Below, piece by piece: positions 8,952 to 63,532 of a stretch of 64,000 bases of DNA. This stretch comes from Cycloclasticus sp. symbiont of Poecilosclerida sp. N. Lineage in GTDB: Bacteria; Pseudomonadota; Gammaproteobacteria; Methylococcales; Cycloclasticaceae. Location of the stretch: NCBI GenBank assembly GCA_002101205.1, contig LWTM01000077.1, positions 248,001-312,000 of the forward strand. Reading direction: 5' to 3'. A model generated the notes under the pieces. It made no database searches. It had not been told where the DNA came from and saw only the letters and a list, made by a program, of their open reading frames with translations. The translations under genes and the position numbers were made by a program. The first letter of the stretch is position 1, and each line of letters opens with the position of its first letter.

Positions 8952-9215
8952 ATGGCACGTGTAACAGTTTCGGACTGTCTAAAAGAAGTAGATAATCGTT
9001 TTGAGTTGGTTTTATTGGCATCTCGACGGACTCGTCAAATTCTGGACGGTGCCGAGCCAAGTCTAGAACTTGAAAATGATAAACCAACAGTAGTTGCTCT
9101 AAGAGAAATAGCCGCCGGCAACATCACAGAAGAAGTGCTGGACTTGGTTGATAACCAGCCTATTGAAGAGCTTTTCATTGATGAAGAAGATACGGAGCAG
9201 GTTGCAAAAAAGTAA
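8952..9215 (+). CDS. rpoZ: RNA polymerase omega subunit
   Basis: Omega is the small subunit that helps assemble beta-prime and contributes to a ppGpp site in proteobacteria. The 87-residue product shows the family core: [20 protein letters not shown], then RRTRQIL, then [16 protein letters not shown]. The length is close to E. coli's 91. A ribosome binding site (AAGGGG) precedes the ATG. A terminator-like hairpin at 9370-9400 separates it from spoT. Confidence 0.96.
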
Positions 9216-9221
9216 ATCTTT

Positions 9222-9357
9222 CGTCGTGTCAGCCCTGCCCCCACCTGCATAAGGCTTATTAAAACTAAGACAAAGCACTTTTGTTGTGTCGGCTTTATAC
9301 CGCCGGCATAAGACTCATTGAAACGAATACAAAGCACTTTCGTTTAATTCAGCTTTA
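9222..9357. repeat. Imperfect tandem repeat, period about 59 bases, rpoZ-spoT gap
   Basis: Two copies of a roughly 49-base unit (9249-9297 and 9308-9357) align well through CAAAGCACTTT and AGCTTTA/GGCTTTA. A truncated, more diverged third copy lies at 9222-9248. The spacing between the shared CATAAG words (9248 and 9307) is 59 bases. The repeat occupies the whole gap between the rpoZ stop and the terminator. No reading frame is maintained, and I see no function for it beyond a possible small repetitive element. Confidence 0.6.
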
Positions 9358-9369
9358 ATGCTAGACTCA

Positions 9370-9400
9370 AATGCTCATGGCAAGGTCATGGGCATTTTTT
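9370..9400 (+). terminator. Rho-independent terminator after rpoZ
   Basis: AATGCTCATG (9370-9379) pairs with CATGGGCATT (9387-9396) across a 7-base loop, giving a 10-pair stem with one G-T pair, followed by a run of six T. It fits an intrinsic terminator for the yicC-gmk-rpoZ transcript. It overlaps the far-upstream ATG codons of the spoT frame, which argues that spoT starts later, at 9434. Confidence 0.75.
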
Positions 9401-9433
9401 ATGCCTATAATTTTAAGTTACAAAGTAGAGTCT

Positions 9434-11599
9434 ATGGCAGTAAGTCAGAAAAAAGAAAACGTTTTGTCGCAGGAAACACTCATGTCCGAATTGCTGTCGG
9501 TGGTTGGTGCTTATTCATCAAGAAAGCAATTGCGTAAAATACAGCAAGCCTATCAAGTGGCTAGCAGTGCTCATTTGGGACAGTTTCGCCTCAGTGGAGA
9601 AGACTATATTTGTCACCCCGTGTCTGTTGCGCTTATTTTAAGCCATATGAAAATGGATGCAGACTGCATTATGGCAGCCATTATGCATGACATAGTAGAA
9701 GACACGGATGTGACTCTTGATGAGTTGGCGGAAAATTTTAATAAGGATGTGTCTAGCCTTGTTGCTGCTGTTAGCAAGTTGACCAAAATAAATTTTAAAT
9801 CTCGTGAAGAAGCGCAAGCCGAGAATATGCGCAAGATGTTTCTTGCGATGGCAAAAGACTTGCGAGTCATCATCATTAAACTTGCCGATCGTTTACATAA
9901 CATGCGGACTATTGGTTTTATGAAACCCGCTAGTCGACGCCGTATTGCAAAAGAAACGTTAGAGATTTATGCCCCCATCGCCCATCGTTTAGGGATGCAC
10001 GAGTTTCGACTTGAGTTAGAAGATTTGAGTTTTGCAGCAATATTCCCTTATCGAAAAGAAGCGATTGCTAATGGTGTTATGAAAGCGCGCGGACATAGAA
10101 AGGAAATGTTAGAAAAGCTAGAGCAAACGCTTGTTGCGCGATTTGTAAATACGGATTTCCCAGGTGTTATTAAAGGTCGAGAAAAGAATTTATACGGCAT
10201 TTATCAAAAAATGAAACGGCAGAGCATACCGTTTAACGAAGTATTTGATGTGTATGCATTCCGAGTGATTGTCGAGACGCCTGAGCAGTGCTATCAAGCG
10301 TTAGGTGTCCTTCATGCTTTGTATAAGCCTGTTCCTGGGAAATTTAAGGACTATATAGCGCTACCCAAAAGTAACGGCTATCAATCTTTGCATACTGTGC
10401 TGGTTGGCCCTTTTGGTGTGCCTGTAGAAATTCAGATTAGGACATTGGCAATGGATCAGGTGGCAGAGTCTGGCATTTCTGCACACTGGCTATATAAAAC
10501 GACAGATGTGTTTGGGGACTCTCAAGTTGGAGCGCATGAATGGCTGAGAACTTTATTGGAAACTCAAAAAAATGAAGCAGACTCATTTGCGTTTATTGAT
10601 AATTTAAAAGTAGATTTATTTCCCAAAGAAATTTTTGTATTTTCTCCGAAAGGTGAAATTGTCAAACTACCCGCAGGTTCTACGGCCGTAGATTTTGCGT
10701 TTGCGGTGCATACAGATATAGGTATGGCGTGTGCGGGCGTGAAAGTAAATAGGCAAATGGAGCCTTTACACACGGTTTTAAGAAATGGGCAAACTGTAGA
10801 AATCATGACCAGCGATTTTGCGGTCTGTAATCCGAATTGGCTGAATTTTGTTACGACTAATAAGGCCAGAAATGCTATTCGTCATCATCTAAAAGAATTT
10901 AAGGAACGCGATGCTATTGCTTTGGGTGGGCAATTATTAAATGATGAGTTAAAGGAGTCTGGCGTTACATTTGGTGATCTTGATAAGGATAGGCTGGACG
11001 AGTTTTTGAATGCGCAGCAACTAGGATCGGTTGATGCTTTACTGATGGACATAGGGTTTGGAAACCGGATGCCACTGATTGTTGCTCAGCATTTAATACC
11101 ACCTGTTGGCCAGGAAGAGCCTTCATTAGATATTAGCAAAGGTAAGCAGTCGACAGCGACGCTTAATATTCACGGTGCAGAAGGCATGTTAATCAATTTA
11201 GCAACATGTTGTCGGCCGATACCTGGGGATAAAATCCTTGGGTTTTTCAACCCAGGACGAGGTATCGTTGTGCACCGAACGCATTGTAAAAACACCAAAG
11301 AGCAGAGGCGTAAAAACGCCAATTGGTTGAATGTTCAATGGGCAGAAAATGTGGATGGCGAATTCAGTTCAGATATCAGTTTGGACTTACAAGATGGGCG
11401 AGGCGTTTTAGCGGAAATAGCCTTATCGTTATCAAAATCGGGTTGTAATATTGAGAACATAAGCATGGCGAAACATTCGAAAAACGATTCGCACGACAGA
11501 TTCACTATTACGGTGCGAGATAGGAAGCACCTTGCGAGGGTGGCGCGACGCCTGCGTGGTTTGCCATCTGTATTCAAAATATCACGCCTTAGAAACTAG
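9434..11599 (+). CDS. spoT: Bifunctional (p)ppGpp synthetase/hydrolase SpoT
   Basis: This long RelA/SpoT homologue controls the stringent-response alarmone. I use the ATG at 9434 (MAVSQKKENV), giving 721 residues; the frame is open from 9371 but that part lies in a terminator. Domains in order: an HD hydrolase with intact HDIVED (about residues 85-90); a synthetase domain with YQALGVLHALYKPVPGKFKD and KSNGYQSLHTVLVGPFG; a TGS domain (FVFSPKGEIVKLPAGST); a zinc-finger-like region with CCRPIPGD; and a C-terminal ACT domain. The intact HD box marks a hydrolase-competent enzyme rather than RelA. ridA, recG, ubiC and ubiA follow closely. Confidence 0.96.
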   Translation: MAVSQKKENVLSQETLMSELLSVVGAYSSRKQLRKIQQAYQVASSAHLGQFRLSGEDYICHPVSVALILSHMKMDADCIMAAIMHDIVEDTDVTLDELAENFNKDVSSLVAAVSKLTKINFKSREEAQAENMRKMFLAMAKDLRVIIIKLADRLHNMRTIGFMKPASRRRIAKETLEIYAPIAHRLGMHEFRLELEDLSFAAIFPYRKEAIANGVMKARGHRKEMLEKLEQTLVARFVNTDFPGVIKGREKNLYGIYQKMKRQSIPFNEVFDVYAFRVIVETPEQCYQALGVLHALYKPVPGKFKDYIALPKSNGYQSLHTVLVGPFGVPVEIQIRTLAMDQVAESGISAHWLYKTTDVFGDSQVGAHEWLRTLLETQKNEADSFAFIDNLKVDLFPKEIFVFSPKGEIVKLPAGSTAVDFAFAVHTDIGMACAGVKVNRQMEPLHTVLRNGQTVEIMTSDFAVCNPNWLNFVTTNKARNAIRHHLKEFKERDAIALGGQLLNDELKESGVTFGDLDKDRLDEFLNAQQLGSVDALLMDIGFGNRMPLIVAQHLIPPVGQEEPSLDISKGKQSTATLNIHGAEGMLINLATCCRPIPGDKILGFFNPGRGIVVHRTHCKNTKEQRRKNANWLNVQWAENVDGEFSSDISLDLQDGRGVLAEIALSLSKSGCNIENISMAKHSKNDSHDRFTITVRDRKHLARVARRLRGLPSVFKISRLRN

Positions 11600-56568: not shown

Positions 56569-57582
56569 GTGAGTTCAACATACCGCATACTTATTGTTGG
56601 CCCTTCATGGGTCGGTGATATGGTCATGGCACAAAGCCTGTTCATGGCGTTAAAACAGCAGCATAAAAACTGCTCGATTGACGTATTAGCACCCGAATGG
56701 TCGCTGGCGATTATGGAACGTATGCCCGAGGTAAGAAAAGCGATTGTTATGCCGTTAGGACATGGACAGTTCGACTTTAAAGGTCGTAAAGCCGTAGGTG
56801 AAAAACTACGGGTAGAGGAGTACGACGAGTCTATCGTTTTGCCTAATTCGTGGAAATCAGCCTTAACGCCTTACTTCGCAAACATTCCAAAACGTACAGG
56901 TTATTTGGGCGAATTGCGTTGGGGTTTATTAAATAATTCACGCAGGCTAAATAAAAACTTATTAACTAAAACCGTACAACGTTTTGTTGCACTAGCATCC
57001 GCAGCTAATACCATTGTGCCCGTTATTCCGCAACCACGACTATTAATCGATCCTGCCAGTGTTGATGTGGCAAAGGCATCGTTTAATTTGGAGTTAACCG
57101 AAGCTAAGGTACTTGGCTTATGCCCAGGGGCAGAATATGGCTCTGCTAAACGCTGGCCGCAAGAGCATTACGCAGCGGTAGCAAAAAAGGCGCTGGAGAA
57201 CGGTTGGCAAGTGTACTTATTTGGTTCAGCTAAAGATGAACCTGTAACGGCAAAAGTTAATGAATTAGCCGGGGGGGCTTGCCGTGATTTTGCGGGTAAA
57301 ACAAACTTAACTGAGGCACTAGATTTAATGTCTTTATGCGATGTTGTTATCAGTAACGACTCGGGGTTAATGCACGTTGCAGCGGCGCTTAATATTAAAA
57401 CAATCGCCTTGTATGGTTCATCAGACCCTAATTTCACACCACCACTGCACCCCGATGCGGATGTGATTACCTTAGGTTTAGAATGCTCGCCATGTTTTAA
57501 GCGCGAATGCCCGTTAGGTCATTTAGATTGCCTGACGAAAATCTCTCCAGAGCGAGTTCTTAGTTTAATGGATGTGGCGTAG
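56569..57582 (+). CDS. waaF: ADP-heptose:LPS heptosyltransferase II
   Basis: WaaF adds the second heptose to the LPS inner core. The 337-residue GT9 enzyme begins at GTG 56569 and has ILIVGPSWVGDMVMAQSLF, GLCPGAEYGSAKRWPQEHYA and SNDSGLMHVAAALN. The C-terminal SSDPNFTPPLHP and CFKRECPLGHLDCLTKISPE match WaaF rather than WaaC. It follows ilvE by 12 bases. Directly after its stop the sequence is no longer normal: a heptosyltransferase fragment and insertion-sequence tail follow. Confidence 0.95.
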   Translation: MSSTYRILIVGPSWVGDMVMAQSLFMALKQQHKNCSIDVLAPEWSLAIMERMPEVRKAIVMPLGHGQFDFKGRKAVGEKLRVEEYDESIVLPNSWKSALTPYFANIPKRTGYLGELRWGLLNNSRRLNKNLLTKTVQRFVALASAANTIVPVIPQPRLLIDPASVDVAKASFNLELTEAKVLGLCPGAEYGSAKRWPQEHYAAVAKKALENGWQVYLFGSAKDEPVTAKVNELAGGACRDFAGKTNLTEALDLMSLCDVVISNDSGLMHVAAALNIKTIALYGSSDPNFTPPLHPDADVITLGLECSPCFKRECPLGHLDCLTKISPERVLSLMDVA

Positions 57583-59355: not shown

Positions 59356-59672
59356 GGTGAAAATACCGAAAGCTTACAAACAGAATTTGATTGCTCGCCC
59401 TGTTTGAAAAAAGAGTGTGCTTATCGCCAGCCTTCATCTGTTCAGCCAGCTTGTTATCAATCATGACCACCACAACTAGTATTGAATAAGCTACAGGCAT
59501 TAATGAAACGAATATTGTGAAAGAAATAGATAGCTGGGTGAAAGCCCCTGCTACACCACTTAATATTAAATTCAGTGAAGCTGAGCTTCAGTTAACTCAA
59601 AAACTTAGACACCCAGCAGGAAAACGGTTGACTTGTTTAGCGCAGTGGAAAAGTAAGGCTGTTACCGCTTAG
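59356..59672 (+). pseudogene. Duplicated fragment: waaC 3' end and kinase-gene 5' end
   Basis: These 317 bases are a diverged copy (about 92% identical by eye) of 60764-61080, which spans the last 52 codons of waaC and the first 55 of the tandem-kinase gene. It begins 4 bases after the symporter stop. The waaC frame is broken by a premature TGA (GCTTGTTATCAATCATGA), and the kinase part starts ATTGTGAAAGAAATAGAT without its ATG (intact ATGAATATTGCGAAA) and ends at TAG in place of an AAG codon. It cannot make either protein. The following 230 bases up to waaC hold nothing recognisable. Confidence 0.85.
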
Positions 59673-59902
59673 ATTCATTTATAATAACCTAAAAGGAATC
59701 GGAGACATCCGCCACATCAAAAATTTCCAAATAGTTGTAAAAACCGTTGAATATTACAATAACAAAAAAAGTCAATCCCGCTGTTGGGCATATAGCCTCA
59801 GCATAGAAAAGTAAAAAATTACTGAATGTGGCTTAGACACTCTACGATTTTAGTTGCGCATCACAGCGTACTCTCAAATAATATTAAGCGAATGGTTTTG
59901 TA

Positions 59903-60919
59903 ATGAATGTTTTAATTATTAAAACGTCGTCACTAGGTGATGTTATCCATACTCTGCCCGCATTAACCGATGCGGCAAAAGCAATCCCCGATACTTCATT
60001 CGACTGGGTGGTTGAAGAGTCATTTCAAGATATCCCTTTATTGCATCCGAATGTAAATAGGATTATTCCCGTATCTATACGCCGCTGGCGCAAAAACTTG
60101 TGGAAACACAAGACAGATATTAAGGCGAGCATTAAGGATATTCAGCAAGAGAGCTATGATGCGGTTATTGATGCGCAAGGGCTGATAAAAAGCGCCTTTT
60201 TTACGCGTTATGCTAAGGGTGAGAAATACGGGCTTTCCAAAACAAGCTGTCGAGAGCCGTTAGCGGCAATGGCGTACCAACACAAAATAGACGTGCCAAA
60301 AGGGCAACATGCGATTACCCGCGTAAGACAATTATTTGCACAAAGCTTAGATTACGACTTTTCTGCGGATACGCTTTCGTATGGTTTGAGAAAAACTGAT
60401 TTTTTACCACAAGAATCGTTGCAAAAGCCGTACTTAATATTCCTGCATGGCACAACATGGGCAAGCAAACATTGGCCAAATGAGTATTGGAAATCGCTGG
60501 TTTCATTAGCGACAAAGGCTGGTTTTAACGTGTATTTACCCTGGGGTAATGAACAAGAAAAGACACGTGCAGACAACTTGGCTGATGTATCAGCAAAAGC
60601 CCGTGTGTTGCCGCGTTTAGGTATTAAAGAACTATCAGCAATACTGATGCACGCAAGCGGCGTAATAGGTGTGGATAGTGGTTTGGCGCATTTAACGGCA
60701 GCTTGTGGCACACCAGCAGTCACACTTTACGGGTCAACCAATGCGGTACTAACAGGCACCTTAGGTGAAAATACCGAAAGTTTACAAACAAAATTTGATT
60801 GCTCGCCCTGTTTGAAAAAAGAGTGTGGTTATCGCCAGCCTTCATCTGTTCAGCCAGCTTGTTATCAATCATTACCGCCGCAACTAGTATTGAATAAACT
60901 ACAGGCATTAATGAAATGA
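59903..60919 (+). CDS. waaC: ADP-heptose:LPS heptosyltransferase I
   Basis: WaaC adds the first heptose to Kdo2-lipid A. The 338-residue GT9 enzyme has the start VLIIKTSSLGDVIHTLPALTDA, YDAVIDAQGLIKSAFFTRYA, FLHGTTWASKHWPNEYW, and GVDSGLAHLTAACGTPAVTLYGSTN. The DCSPCLKKECGYRQPS segment near the end carries the cysteine cluster seen in many members. Its stop overlaps the kinase-gene start by 4 bases. Confidence 0.95.
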   Translation: MNVLIIKTSSLGDVIHTLPALTDAAKAIPDTSFDWVVEESFQDIPLLHPNVNRIIPVSIRRWRKNLWKHKTDIKASIKDIQQESYDAVIDAQGLIKSAFFTRYAKGEKYGLSKTSCREPLAAMAYQHKIDVPKGQHAITRVRQLFAQSLDYDFSADTLSYGLRKTDFLPQESLQKPYLIFLHGTTWASKHWPNEYWKSLVSLATKAGFNVYLPWGNEQEKTRADNLADVSAKARVLPRLGIKELSAILMHASGVIGVDSGLAHLTAACGTPAVTLYGSTNAVLTGTLGENTESLQTKFDCSPCLKKECGYRQPSSVQPACYQSLPPQLVLNKLQALMK

Positions 60920-62349
60920 ATATTGCGAAAGAAATAGATACCTGGGTGGAAACCCCTGCTACACCACTTAATATTAAATTCAGTGAAGCTGAGATCCAGT
61001 TAACTCAAAAACTTAGACACTTAGCAGGAAAACGATTGACTTGTTTGGCGCAGTGGAAAAGTGAGACCGTTATTGCTAAGTTTTTTTATGGTGCGCGTGC
61101 TCAGCAGCAGGTTGAAAAAGAATCTGCTGTGCTGAAAGAATTAATAAAAAAAGGCATTCGCACACCAAAGTTTTTAGCTATGTATGAGAAAGCAGGTTGC
61201 TCAGTGCTGCTGATTGAATACATAGCAGATGCCATATCACTTGCAAAGTGGTTGAAAGATGAACCTGAGCAGTCAGCGTTTGAAAAGACAATGTCGAAAA
61301 CAACGACATTAATGCTTGAGTGCCACCGTGCTGGTTTTGAAATAAAGGATCCACACTTAGATAACCTCTTAATTAGAAAGGATGATGTATTTATCATTGA
61401 TGCAGGTGATATTACGCAATTTAGCGAACCATTAAACAACGAGCGTTCGCTACAAAACATGGCGCTTTTATATGCGCAGCTTCCAGTCACACAAGATGTT
61501 ATTACTTTTCAAGTCTTGAAAAACATCTTGCTAGAAAAGAGTGATCTTGAAGCGCCAAATGAAAAAGAGTGGCAACAACGCTTAATTCGTCAACGGCGCT
61601 GGCGACAGAAAAAGTTCATTGATAAAAAAGTCTTTAGAGACTGTACGGCTTACCATTGCGAACAGAGTAGCTCAAGATTTCTGGTGGCTAAACGCGATTT
61701 CTTTACCGACGAAGTAGCGCAAGCATTAACGAATCCAGATATGCTCATCGAAAAAGGCACCCTGTTAAAAAATGGCAACACAGCCACTGTAGCAAAGGTT
61801 GAGATAGGCGATAAAACGTATGTTTTAAAACGATACAACATAAAAAAACCAATACACTCTTTTATCAGAGGCTTTATGTGGTCGAGAGCGGCTGTCTCGT
61901 GGCGAAACGGCTTGCTATTAGAAATGCTGGGTATTCCAACAGCTAAGTCATATGTAATGATTGAAGGACGTTGGGGAGCGTTGAGAAGGCGTTCTTATCT
62001 ATTGTCGGAGTTTATTAGTGCGCCAACCGCTTGGGATATTTTTGAAGACAAACAGTTTAATGAGCAAAATAGAAGTGATTGGGCTAAAAAAATATCTGAA
62101 TTATTTATGCTTTTGAAACGCAATCAAGTGAGCCATGGGGACTTGAAGGCGCAGAATATACTTTGTCATACGAAAACCGCCGCTCTTATTGATCTAGACG
62201 GCTTACAGTCAACATTAGTGTATAAAAAATTCCTGCAAAGATATAAAAAAGATATTCAACGGTTCCAAATAAGTTGGCCATCAAAATGGCGTGAGAACCC
62301 ATATTTCGCTGAATATGTGTTAGCGTTGTTAAATTCGGAAGCCCATTAA
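60916..62349 (+). CDS. Protein with two LPS-kinase-like domains in tandem
   Basis: The 477-residue protein seems to contain two kinase folds of the Kdo/heptose kinase type. The first half (about 1-190) has a D-x4-N pattern at Asp145-Asn150 (KDPHLDNLLI) and a metal-binding FIIDAGD; the histidine before Asp is replaced. The second half (about 230-477) has VLKRYNIKKP, catalytic SHGDLKAQNIL (His407, Asp409, Asn414) and ALIDLDG. Kinases such as WaaP, KdkA and InaA have one domain. Coupled to waaC by a 4-base overlap, it probably phosphorylates the inner core; whether both domains act is unknown. No transmembrane segment is seen. Confidence 0.78.
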   Translation: MNIAKEIDTWVETPATPLNIKFSEAEIQLTQKLRHLAGKRLTCLAQWKSETVIAKFFYGARAQQQVEKESAVLKELIKKGIRTPKFLAMYEKAGCSVLLIEYIADAISLAKWLKDEPEQSAFEKTMSKTTTLMLECHRAGFEIKDPHLDNLLIRKDDVFIIDAGDITQFSEPLNNERSLQNMALLYAQLPVTQDVITFQVLKNILLEKSDLEAPNEKEWQQRLIRQRRWRQKKFIDKKVFRDCTAYHCEQSSSRFLVAKRDFFTDEVAQALTNPDMLIEKGTLLKNGNTATVAKVEIGDKTYVLKRYNIKKPIHSFIRGFMWSRAAVSWRNGLLLEMLGIPTAKSYVMIEGRWGALRRRSYLLSEFISAPTAWDIFEDKQFNEQNRSDWAKKISELFMLLKRNQVSHGDLKAQNILCHTKTAALIDLDGLQSTLVYKKFLQRYKKDIQRFQISWPSKWRENPYFAEYVLALLNSEAH

Positions 62350-62533: not shown

Positions 62534-63532
62534 ATGTTCAATAATAAAACAATTCTTATTACAGGAGGCACGGGCTCATTTGGCAATACCTTTGTGCCAA
62601 TGACGCTTGAAAAATACAATCCTAAAAAAATCATCATCTACTCACGTGACGAGATGAAACAATGGGAAATGGCTAAGAAATTTGAAGGTGATTCTCGCGT
62701 GCGTTTTTTTATTGGCGATGTGCGAGATAAAGAACGGATTTATCGTGCGTTAGATGGCGTTGATTACGTGGTGCATGCCGCGGCAACAAAAATAGTACCT
62801 ACCGCTGAATACAACCCATTTGAATGCGTAAAGACGAATATCAATGGAGCAATGAATTTAATTGATGCTTGCATTGATAAAAACATCAAAGGAGTGGTCG
62901 CGCTCTCAACCGATAAGGCTAGCAGTCCAATTAATCTTTATGGGGCAACAAAGCTTGTTTCAGATAAATTATTTGTAGCCGGTAACTCCTATTCAGGCTC
63001 GCACCTTACCCGCTTTGCTGTTGTACGTTATGGCAATGTTATGGGTTCACGCGGCTCGGTCATTCCCTTTTTTATGTCAATTAAAGATAAAGGTGTTTTG
63101 CCAATAACAGATGAGCGAATGACGCGCTTTATGATTTCACTGGAAGACGGCGTAGATTTGGTTTGGCATGCCTTTCACGATATGGAAGGCGGGGAAGTTT
63201 ATGTAAAAAAAATCCCGTCAATGAAAGTAACAGACCTTGCAAGAGTTATTGCGCCAGAAGCCAAACAGGAAATAATAGGTATTCGCCCCGGTGAAAAACT
63301 CCACGAAAAGATGATTAGTGCCGAAGATGCAGCCTATACCTATGAATACCCTGAGTACTTTAAAATCCTACCGACGATTAATAACTGGGGCGCAGATGAA
63401 GTACGTATTAAAGATGGGGTAAAGGTAAAAGAAGGTTTTATATATGCCAGTGATAGCAATAATGATTGGATGAGTGAAGATGATTTTCAAAAGTGGCTTA
63501 GTTCTAATGAAACTAAAATAGGGAGGATTTGA
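62534..63532 (+). CDS. pseB: UDP-GlcNAc 4,6-dehydratase (inverting), PseB-type
   Basis: PseB starts pseudaminic acid synthesis by dehydrating and inverting UDP-GlcNAc with bound NADP. The 332-residue short-chain dehydrogenase/reductase has the nucleotide motif TGGTGSFGNTF, HAAATKIVPTAEYNPFECV, the YxxxK pair in INLYGATKLVSDK and the C-terminal GIRPGEKLHE. It lies 184 bases after the kinase gene and 64 bases before a cytidylyltransferase gene. This suggests a cluster making a nonulosonic or related sugar for surface glycans or flagellin. The transaminase pseC, expected next, is not here. Confidence 0.9.
   Translation: MFNNKTILITGGTGSFGNTFVPMTLEKYNPKKIIIYSRDEMKQWEMAKKFEGDSRVRFFIGDVRDKERIYRALDGVDYVVHAAATKIVPTAEYNPFECVKTNINGAMNLIDACIDKNIKGVVALSTDKASSPINLYGATKLVSDKLFVAGNSYSGSHLTRFAVVRYGNVMGSRGSVIPFFMSIKDKGVLPITDERMTRFMISLEDGVDLVWHAFHDMEGGEVYVKKIPSMKVTDLARVIAPEAKQEIIGIRPGEKLHEKMISAEDAAYTYEYPEYFKILPTINNWGADEVRIKDGVKVKEGFIYASDSNNDWMSEDDFQKWLSSNETKIGRI

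Follow-up and report, generated by a model that had tools for sequence, protein, structure and literature searches.

The gene at positions 60916–62349 of the window (forward strand, ATG start), the window being the whole stretch of 64,000 nucleotides analysed here from a Cycloclasticus symbiont of Poecilosclerida sp. N, encodes a 477-residue protein made of two lipopolysaccharide (LPS)-kinase-like domains. We predict, with a probability of roughly 60%, that this protein is a tandem kinase of the PA5006 type that acts on the inner core of LPS, the principal molecule on the surface of these bacteria, and that both of its sites work. An initial annotation had read the gene as two fused kinase-like domains, linked it to the inner core and suggested that it might serve two positions; our analysis supports these points.

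Indeed, both halves belong separately to the Kdo/WaaP superfamily (PF06293, curated cut-off of 21.3 bits): residues 1–225 score 29.4 bits (E 6.5e-7) and residues 226–477 score 31.7 bits (E 1.3e-7), and the Kdo model is matched at E <= 0.001 by 19/19 aligned family members. The protein thus has the make-up of a PA5006-type tandem kinase, a single chain of about 470–500 residues with two Kdo-family domains. The N half (residues 1–240, 61635 being its last position; 60916–61635, forward strand) contains Lys55 (61078), Glu69 (61120), Asp145 (61348), His147, Asn150 (61363) and the metal-site Asp162 (61399), while the C half (residues 241–477; 61636–62349, forward strand) contains Lys305 (61828), the HGD aspartate Asp409 (62140), Asn414 (62155), and Asp426 (62191) and Asp428 of a DLD motif (residues 426–428), Asp426 being the metal-site residue. 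The catalytic loops, Asp145-x4-Asn150 and Asp409-x4-Asn414, and the metal-binding aspartates were found where the initial annotation had placed them. Its statement that the complete HGDLxxxN motif is restricted to the second half was also correct: the C half reads HGDLKAQN and the corresponding N-half stretch IKDPHLDN, so that the N half is devoid of the HR/HG part of HRD (IKD instead, with no His or Gly before the Asp).

The assignment of the N half as a kinase domain draws on the Pfam Kdo match, on an AlphaFold model and on its alignment with WaaP (6dfl). In the full model, computed from a five-row alignment, residues 41–230 of the N half reached a pLDDT of about 70–95 in blocks, whereas most of the C half, from the same five rows, stayed under 50; the C half modelled alone had a mean pLDDT of 41.5 and its fold was not resolved. 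The N-half model superimposed on PRPK (Z 17.4, rmsd 4.3, 205 aligned residues), Bud32 (Z 15.9) and WaaP 6dfl (Z 15.2, rmsd 4.1, 202 aligned residues). According to the model, the N half therefore has a kinase fold, and a well-predicted one, the opposite of the outcome (a non-kinase first half) that the initial annotation had named as refuting its reading. Since AlphaFold resolved only the N half, the very half that had been doubted, the identification of the C half as a kinase domain relies on sequence profiles, namely the Pfam Kdo match and a 19-row family profile that, compared with solved kinases, matched TP53RK over the C half (E 1.1e-11), and CaMKII (E 1.7e-7) and WaaP 6dfl (E 8.8e-6) over the N half. 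The N and C profiles were homologous to each other (probability 98.9%, E 1.9e-17). A PDB search with the single sequence gave nothing better than E 0.044.

A homologue search showed that the two-half architecture is not unique to the window but recurs in 62 distinct full-length sequences, the query included, which rules out an assembly artefact or a chance fusion and defines a widespread family, known but uncharacterised. This set comprises 45 distinct full-length sequences (among them the query) and 17 more; it takes in matches to at least 400 of the 476 profile positions from the samples searched, counts each distinct sequence once and excludes N-only, C-only and other partial matches. Within the window's genus, 12 of 18 genomes contain a full-length relative, as do 30/369 genomes of its class and 20/398 genomes of a phylum sample, all 20 belonging to the same class. 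The premise that LPS core kinases usually have one domain stands for most single genes, but two-domain proteins of this family are common in Gammaproteobacteria. The nearest named relative, from the genome of another Cycloclasticus sp. symbiont of Poecilosclerida (MAG; locus L009), is 78% identical in its best segment and follows waaC in the same order. The kinase protein had no match in a plasmid collection, and no relatives were found in viral contigs.

The initial annotation had also proposed that the first half could be a regulatory pseudokinase, a suggestion that residue conservation does not support. In the N half, Lys55, Asp145, Asn150 and Asp162 are each kept in 62/62 sequences, and position 69 in helix alpha-C is Glu in 58/62 and Asp in 4/62; this half therefore retains the five positions of an active eukaryotic-like kinase (beta-3 Lys, alpha-C Glu, catalytic Asp, Asn and metal Asp), and we reject the idea that it is a pseudokinase. 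The C half keeps Lys305 in 60/62 sequences, Asp409 in 59/62, Asn414 and Asp426 each in 60/62 and Asp428 in 62/62, and has no invariant Glu at its alpha-C site (Asn in 35/62, Glu in 16/62). Its catalytic Asp is replaced in three sequences, by Ala (L028), Glu (L036, second copy) and Asn (L029), which indicates that both activities are not needed everywhere. It is thus conceivable, though we consider it unlikely, that one half is a working kinase and the other a nucleotide- or LPS-binding partner that positions the acceptor or regulates a neighbour, as the fusion has been kept in these three lineages despite the loss of the C-half Asp. Against this, both catalytic aspartates occur together in 59/62 sequences, and the two halves each have a low dN/dS: in the comparison of the window with L009 it is 0.151/0.785 (about 0.19) for the N half and 0.096/0.879 (about 0.11) for the C half, compared with 0.077/0.618 (about 0.12) for waaC, so that purifying selection acts on both halves. 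Furthermore, the dispensable half, if there is one, would be the second and not the first.

The one-working-half explanation also draws on the regular presence of pseudokinase-like paralogues in these loci. These paralogues were labelled WapQ-like, WapP-like or PA4998-like by gene order, not by named sequences. WapQ is termed a heptose kinase in the literature. In the WapQ-like proteins, Cys replaces the catalytic Asp in 26 of 27 rows (11/11, and 15/16 further rows, the exception being L121 with Asn); the genes with Cys are those of L009 (6831–7595), L011, L013, L014, L016, L034, L054, L099, L100, L103, L104, L105–L118 and L120. A distant WapQ-like row, L095, has Ala at this position, and the catalytic Asp is missing from WapQ in all 15 loci of family f162 (see below). 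Similarly, Ser takes its place (FRS[AIL]H) in 8/8 PA4998-like proteins (6/6 and 2/2), from L009 (9447–10109, reverse strand), L006, L099, L100, L103, L104, L106 and L119. Judging from these residues, the WapQ-like proteins would be conserved pseudokinases or enzymes with altered catalysis, and the pseudokinase idea appears to fit the neighbouring WapQ-like and PA4998-like proteins better than the first half of the tandem kinase.

The window's own genome carries altered copies of some of these partners. In L031 (G000:C75:42000-60000), at about 8976–10580, two reading frames share the WapP-like gene, and its WapQ-like counterpart has in-frame stops and a frame change, draft-assembly errors being possible in both cases. 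By contrast, open WaaP-like and PA4998-like genes are present in this genome (one stop counted for the WaaP-like gene lies in the aligned stretch before its 267-residue open reading frame). Note that in a sister symbiont the WapP-like gene is apparently reduced to a remnant (L098, 6754–6873). As the tandem kinase gene of the window's genome is intact while these two partners are broken, its product may work without WapP-like and WapQ-like proteins.

The two halves do not appear to share a recent origin. A tree was built from 90 kinase domains, with 22 of the 45 N/C pairs; its bootstrap had not settled and its midpoint root serves for drawing. In it, the N halves formed one clade (100/98) that was joined to PA4998-like proteins (99/92), the C halves mixed with single-domain C-like proteins (100/96), and a supported branch separated the two groups. 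A recent internal duplication can therefore be rejected; because the N and C halves group with different single-domain proteins, the tandem kinase looks, from these sequences, like a fusion of two lineages. Among named single-domain proteins, those of the WapP (PA5008) type are closest to the C half (profile E 2.7e-22); WapP-like proteins have the motif H[NL]D[LF]KWRN, are encoded by separate genes of the same loci and form a clade of their own. In 4/45 sequences a WaaP domain is fused in front of the tandem kinase; these three-kinase fusions (WaaP+N+C, in L019, L027, L062 and L064) are open frames of 728–817 residues. Other open frames, in L085, L089, L090, L093 and L097, combine a WaaP-like and a C-like domain with little or no N domain, which suggests that the modules are shuffled.

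The gene context points to the inner core, in agreement with the coupling to waaC put forward by the initial annotation. The start of the kinase gene overlaps by 4 nt the end of waaC (heptosyltransferase I; 59903–60919, forward strand; TIGR02193, 344.5 bits against a cut-off of 185.3), and waaF (heptosyltransferase II; 56569–57582, forward strand) passes its own cut-off as well (TIGR02195, 446 against 134.6 bits). These are the only genes of the cluster close to the kinase gene in the window, the remaining ones being on other contigs of the genome. The kinase gene lies directly 3' of waaC in eight loci (the window, L009, L061, L072, L073, L074, L075 and L077), and in the window's genus it follows waaC, separate from the WaaP–WapQ block. 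Between a symporter gene and waaC, positions 59356–59675 (forward strand) hold a decayed partial duplicate of the 3' end of waaC and about the first 56 kinase codons, with an in-frame stop; it is 92.2% identical to 60764–61083 over 320 bp without gaps and is a rearrangement scar. On the other side, pseB (62534–63532; 548 bits against a cut-off of 407.75) comes right after the kinase gene, and a pseudaminic-acid-type locus (62534–63532 and 63597–end) probably continues past the end of the window.

In all 15 loci examined from family f162, the order is waaF–waaC–GT–WaaP–WapP–WapQ–tandem kinase, followed in 14/15 by a carbamoyltransferase (Pfam label), either adjacent or at a distance of at most about 5 kb; no carbamoyltransferase was found in L111 within the stretch examined. 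This is the order of PA5012–PA5005 in P. aeruginosa, as given in the available part of PMC8005017. In addition, one f162 locus encodes a WaaP that matches the P. aeruginosa protein (6dfl) along 258 residues (E 2.6e-144). On the basis of the gene order and of this match, f162 very probably corresponds to the Pseudomonadaceae, with the tandem kinase at the position of PA5006. The f162 relatives have the same place in the core operon, beside WapQ, as PA5006 (PMC8005017, in part); one f162 copy matches Kdo in both halves (two stretches), and f162 lengths counted from the ATG start are mostly 473–495 residues, compared with 493 for PA5006 in the accessible portion of PMC8707732. The window protein is about 28–30% identical to the f162 proteins and, unlike the PA5006 locus, its genus has the kinase gene after waaC, away from the WaaP–WapQ block; on the basis of order and length it is a putative orthologue of PA5006. 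The accessible portion of PMC8707732 describes PA5006 as a putative kinase, with a fragment of residues 300–493 and two-hybrid interactions, and reports no enzyme activity for it; likewise, the available parts of PMC8005017, PMC5348532, PMC8707732, PMC6147952, PMC8982409 and PMC1262709 contain no description of its activity or domain make-up. A literature search found no paper combining two kinase domains with the LPS inner core.

None of the curated NCBIfam models reaches its cut-off for the kinase protein. KdkA, the Kdo kinase (NF002475), is the best model by E-value and matches both halves; KdkA is a single-domain protein, however, and the window protein, with two domains, scores 48.5 bits against the required 142. 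The Bud32 model gives 47.9 bits (cut-off 125) and WaaY/RfaY heptose II kinase (NF007684) 22.3 bits (cut-off 248), and the protein is not listed at E <= 1 for WaaP/RfaP (NF011703, cut-off 170 bits). We therefore reject membership in KdkA, RfaP or RfaY. That KdkA and Bud32 are the best curated models, and that PRPK and Bud32 are the nearest solved folds of the N half, would suit a kinase of some other acceptor (Kdo, a sugar of the outer core or, for a RIO/Bud32-like kinase, a protein) whose place in a core locus is incidental. We find this quite improbable: both scores are far below their cut-offs, and the gene stays with waaC, WaaP, WapP, WapQ and the carbamoyltransferase across many genera, besides being fused to WaaP as described above. 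WaaP (RfaP), the heptose I kinase, shares the Kdo Pfam family and, in 6dfl, the kinase fold of the N half, and is often the operon neighbour of the tandem kinase or fused upstream of it. It differs in being single-domain and in having His in place of the catalytic-loop Asn (PMC6147952, in the part available; His in 15/15 here), which is Asn in both halves of the tandem kinase.

For the two-site inner-core kinase, we propose that an N domain nearest to PA4998-like proteins and a C domain nearest to WapP-like and single-domain Kdo-family kinases, of different descent, were joined in one protein, which would be cytoplasmic by analogy with WaaP. Each half would bind ATP, with Lys55/Asp162 and Lys305/Asp426 holding the nucleotide and metal, and Asp145 and Asp409 would serve as bases for a hydroxyl or phosphate group in the heptose region of the acceptor, presumably the Kdo-heptose made by WaaC and WaaF. 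Two different hydroxyls might each receive a phosphate from ATP; alternatively, a single hydroxyl would be phosphorylated first and the newly added phosphate second. The residues and the gene context are observed; what we infer is that each half is active, what it acts on and in which sequence the steps take place.

According to the available part of PMC8005017, di- and triphosphates are present on some core oligosaccharides of Pseudomonas, at positions that are not fully assigned, which leaves room for a second phosphorylation at the same site. More speculatively, the tandem kinase could build these inner-core di- and triphosphates, phosphorylating heptose and then its phosphate, or its halves could fill the sites credited to WapQ, which has Cys at the position of the catalytic Asp and might serve as a scaffold without activity; we hold this extension to be decidedly unlikely, and if it were true the published assignment of the core kinases would need redrawing. 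In a Pseudomonas-type locus, the intact active sites are those of WaaP and WapP and the two of the tandem kinase, WapQ being without the Asp, so that two point mutants would make it possible to test which phosphate each protein adds.
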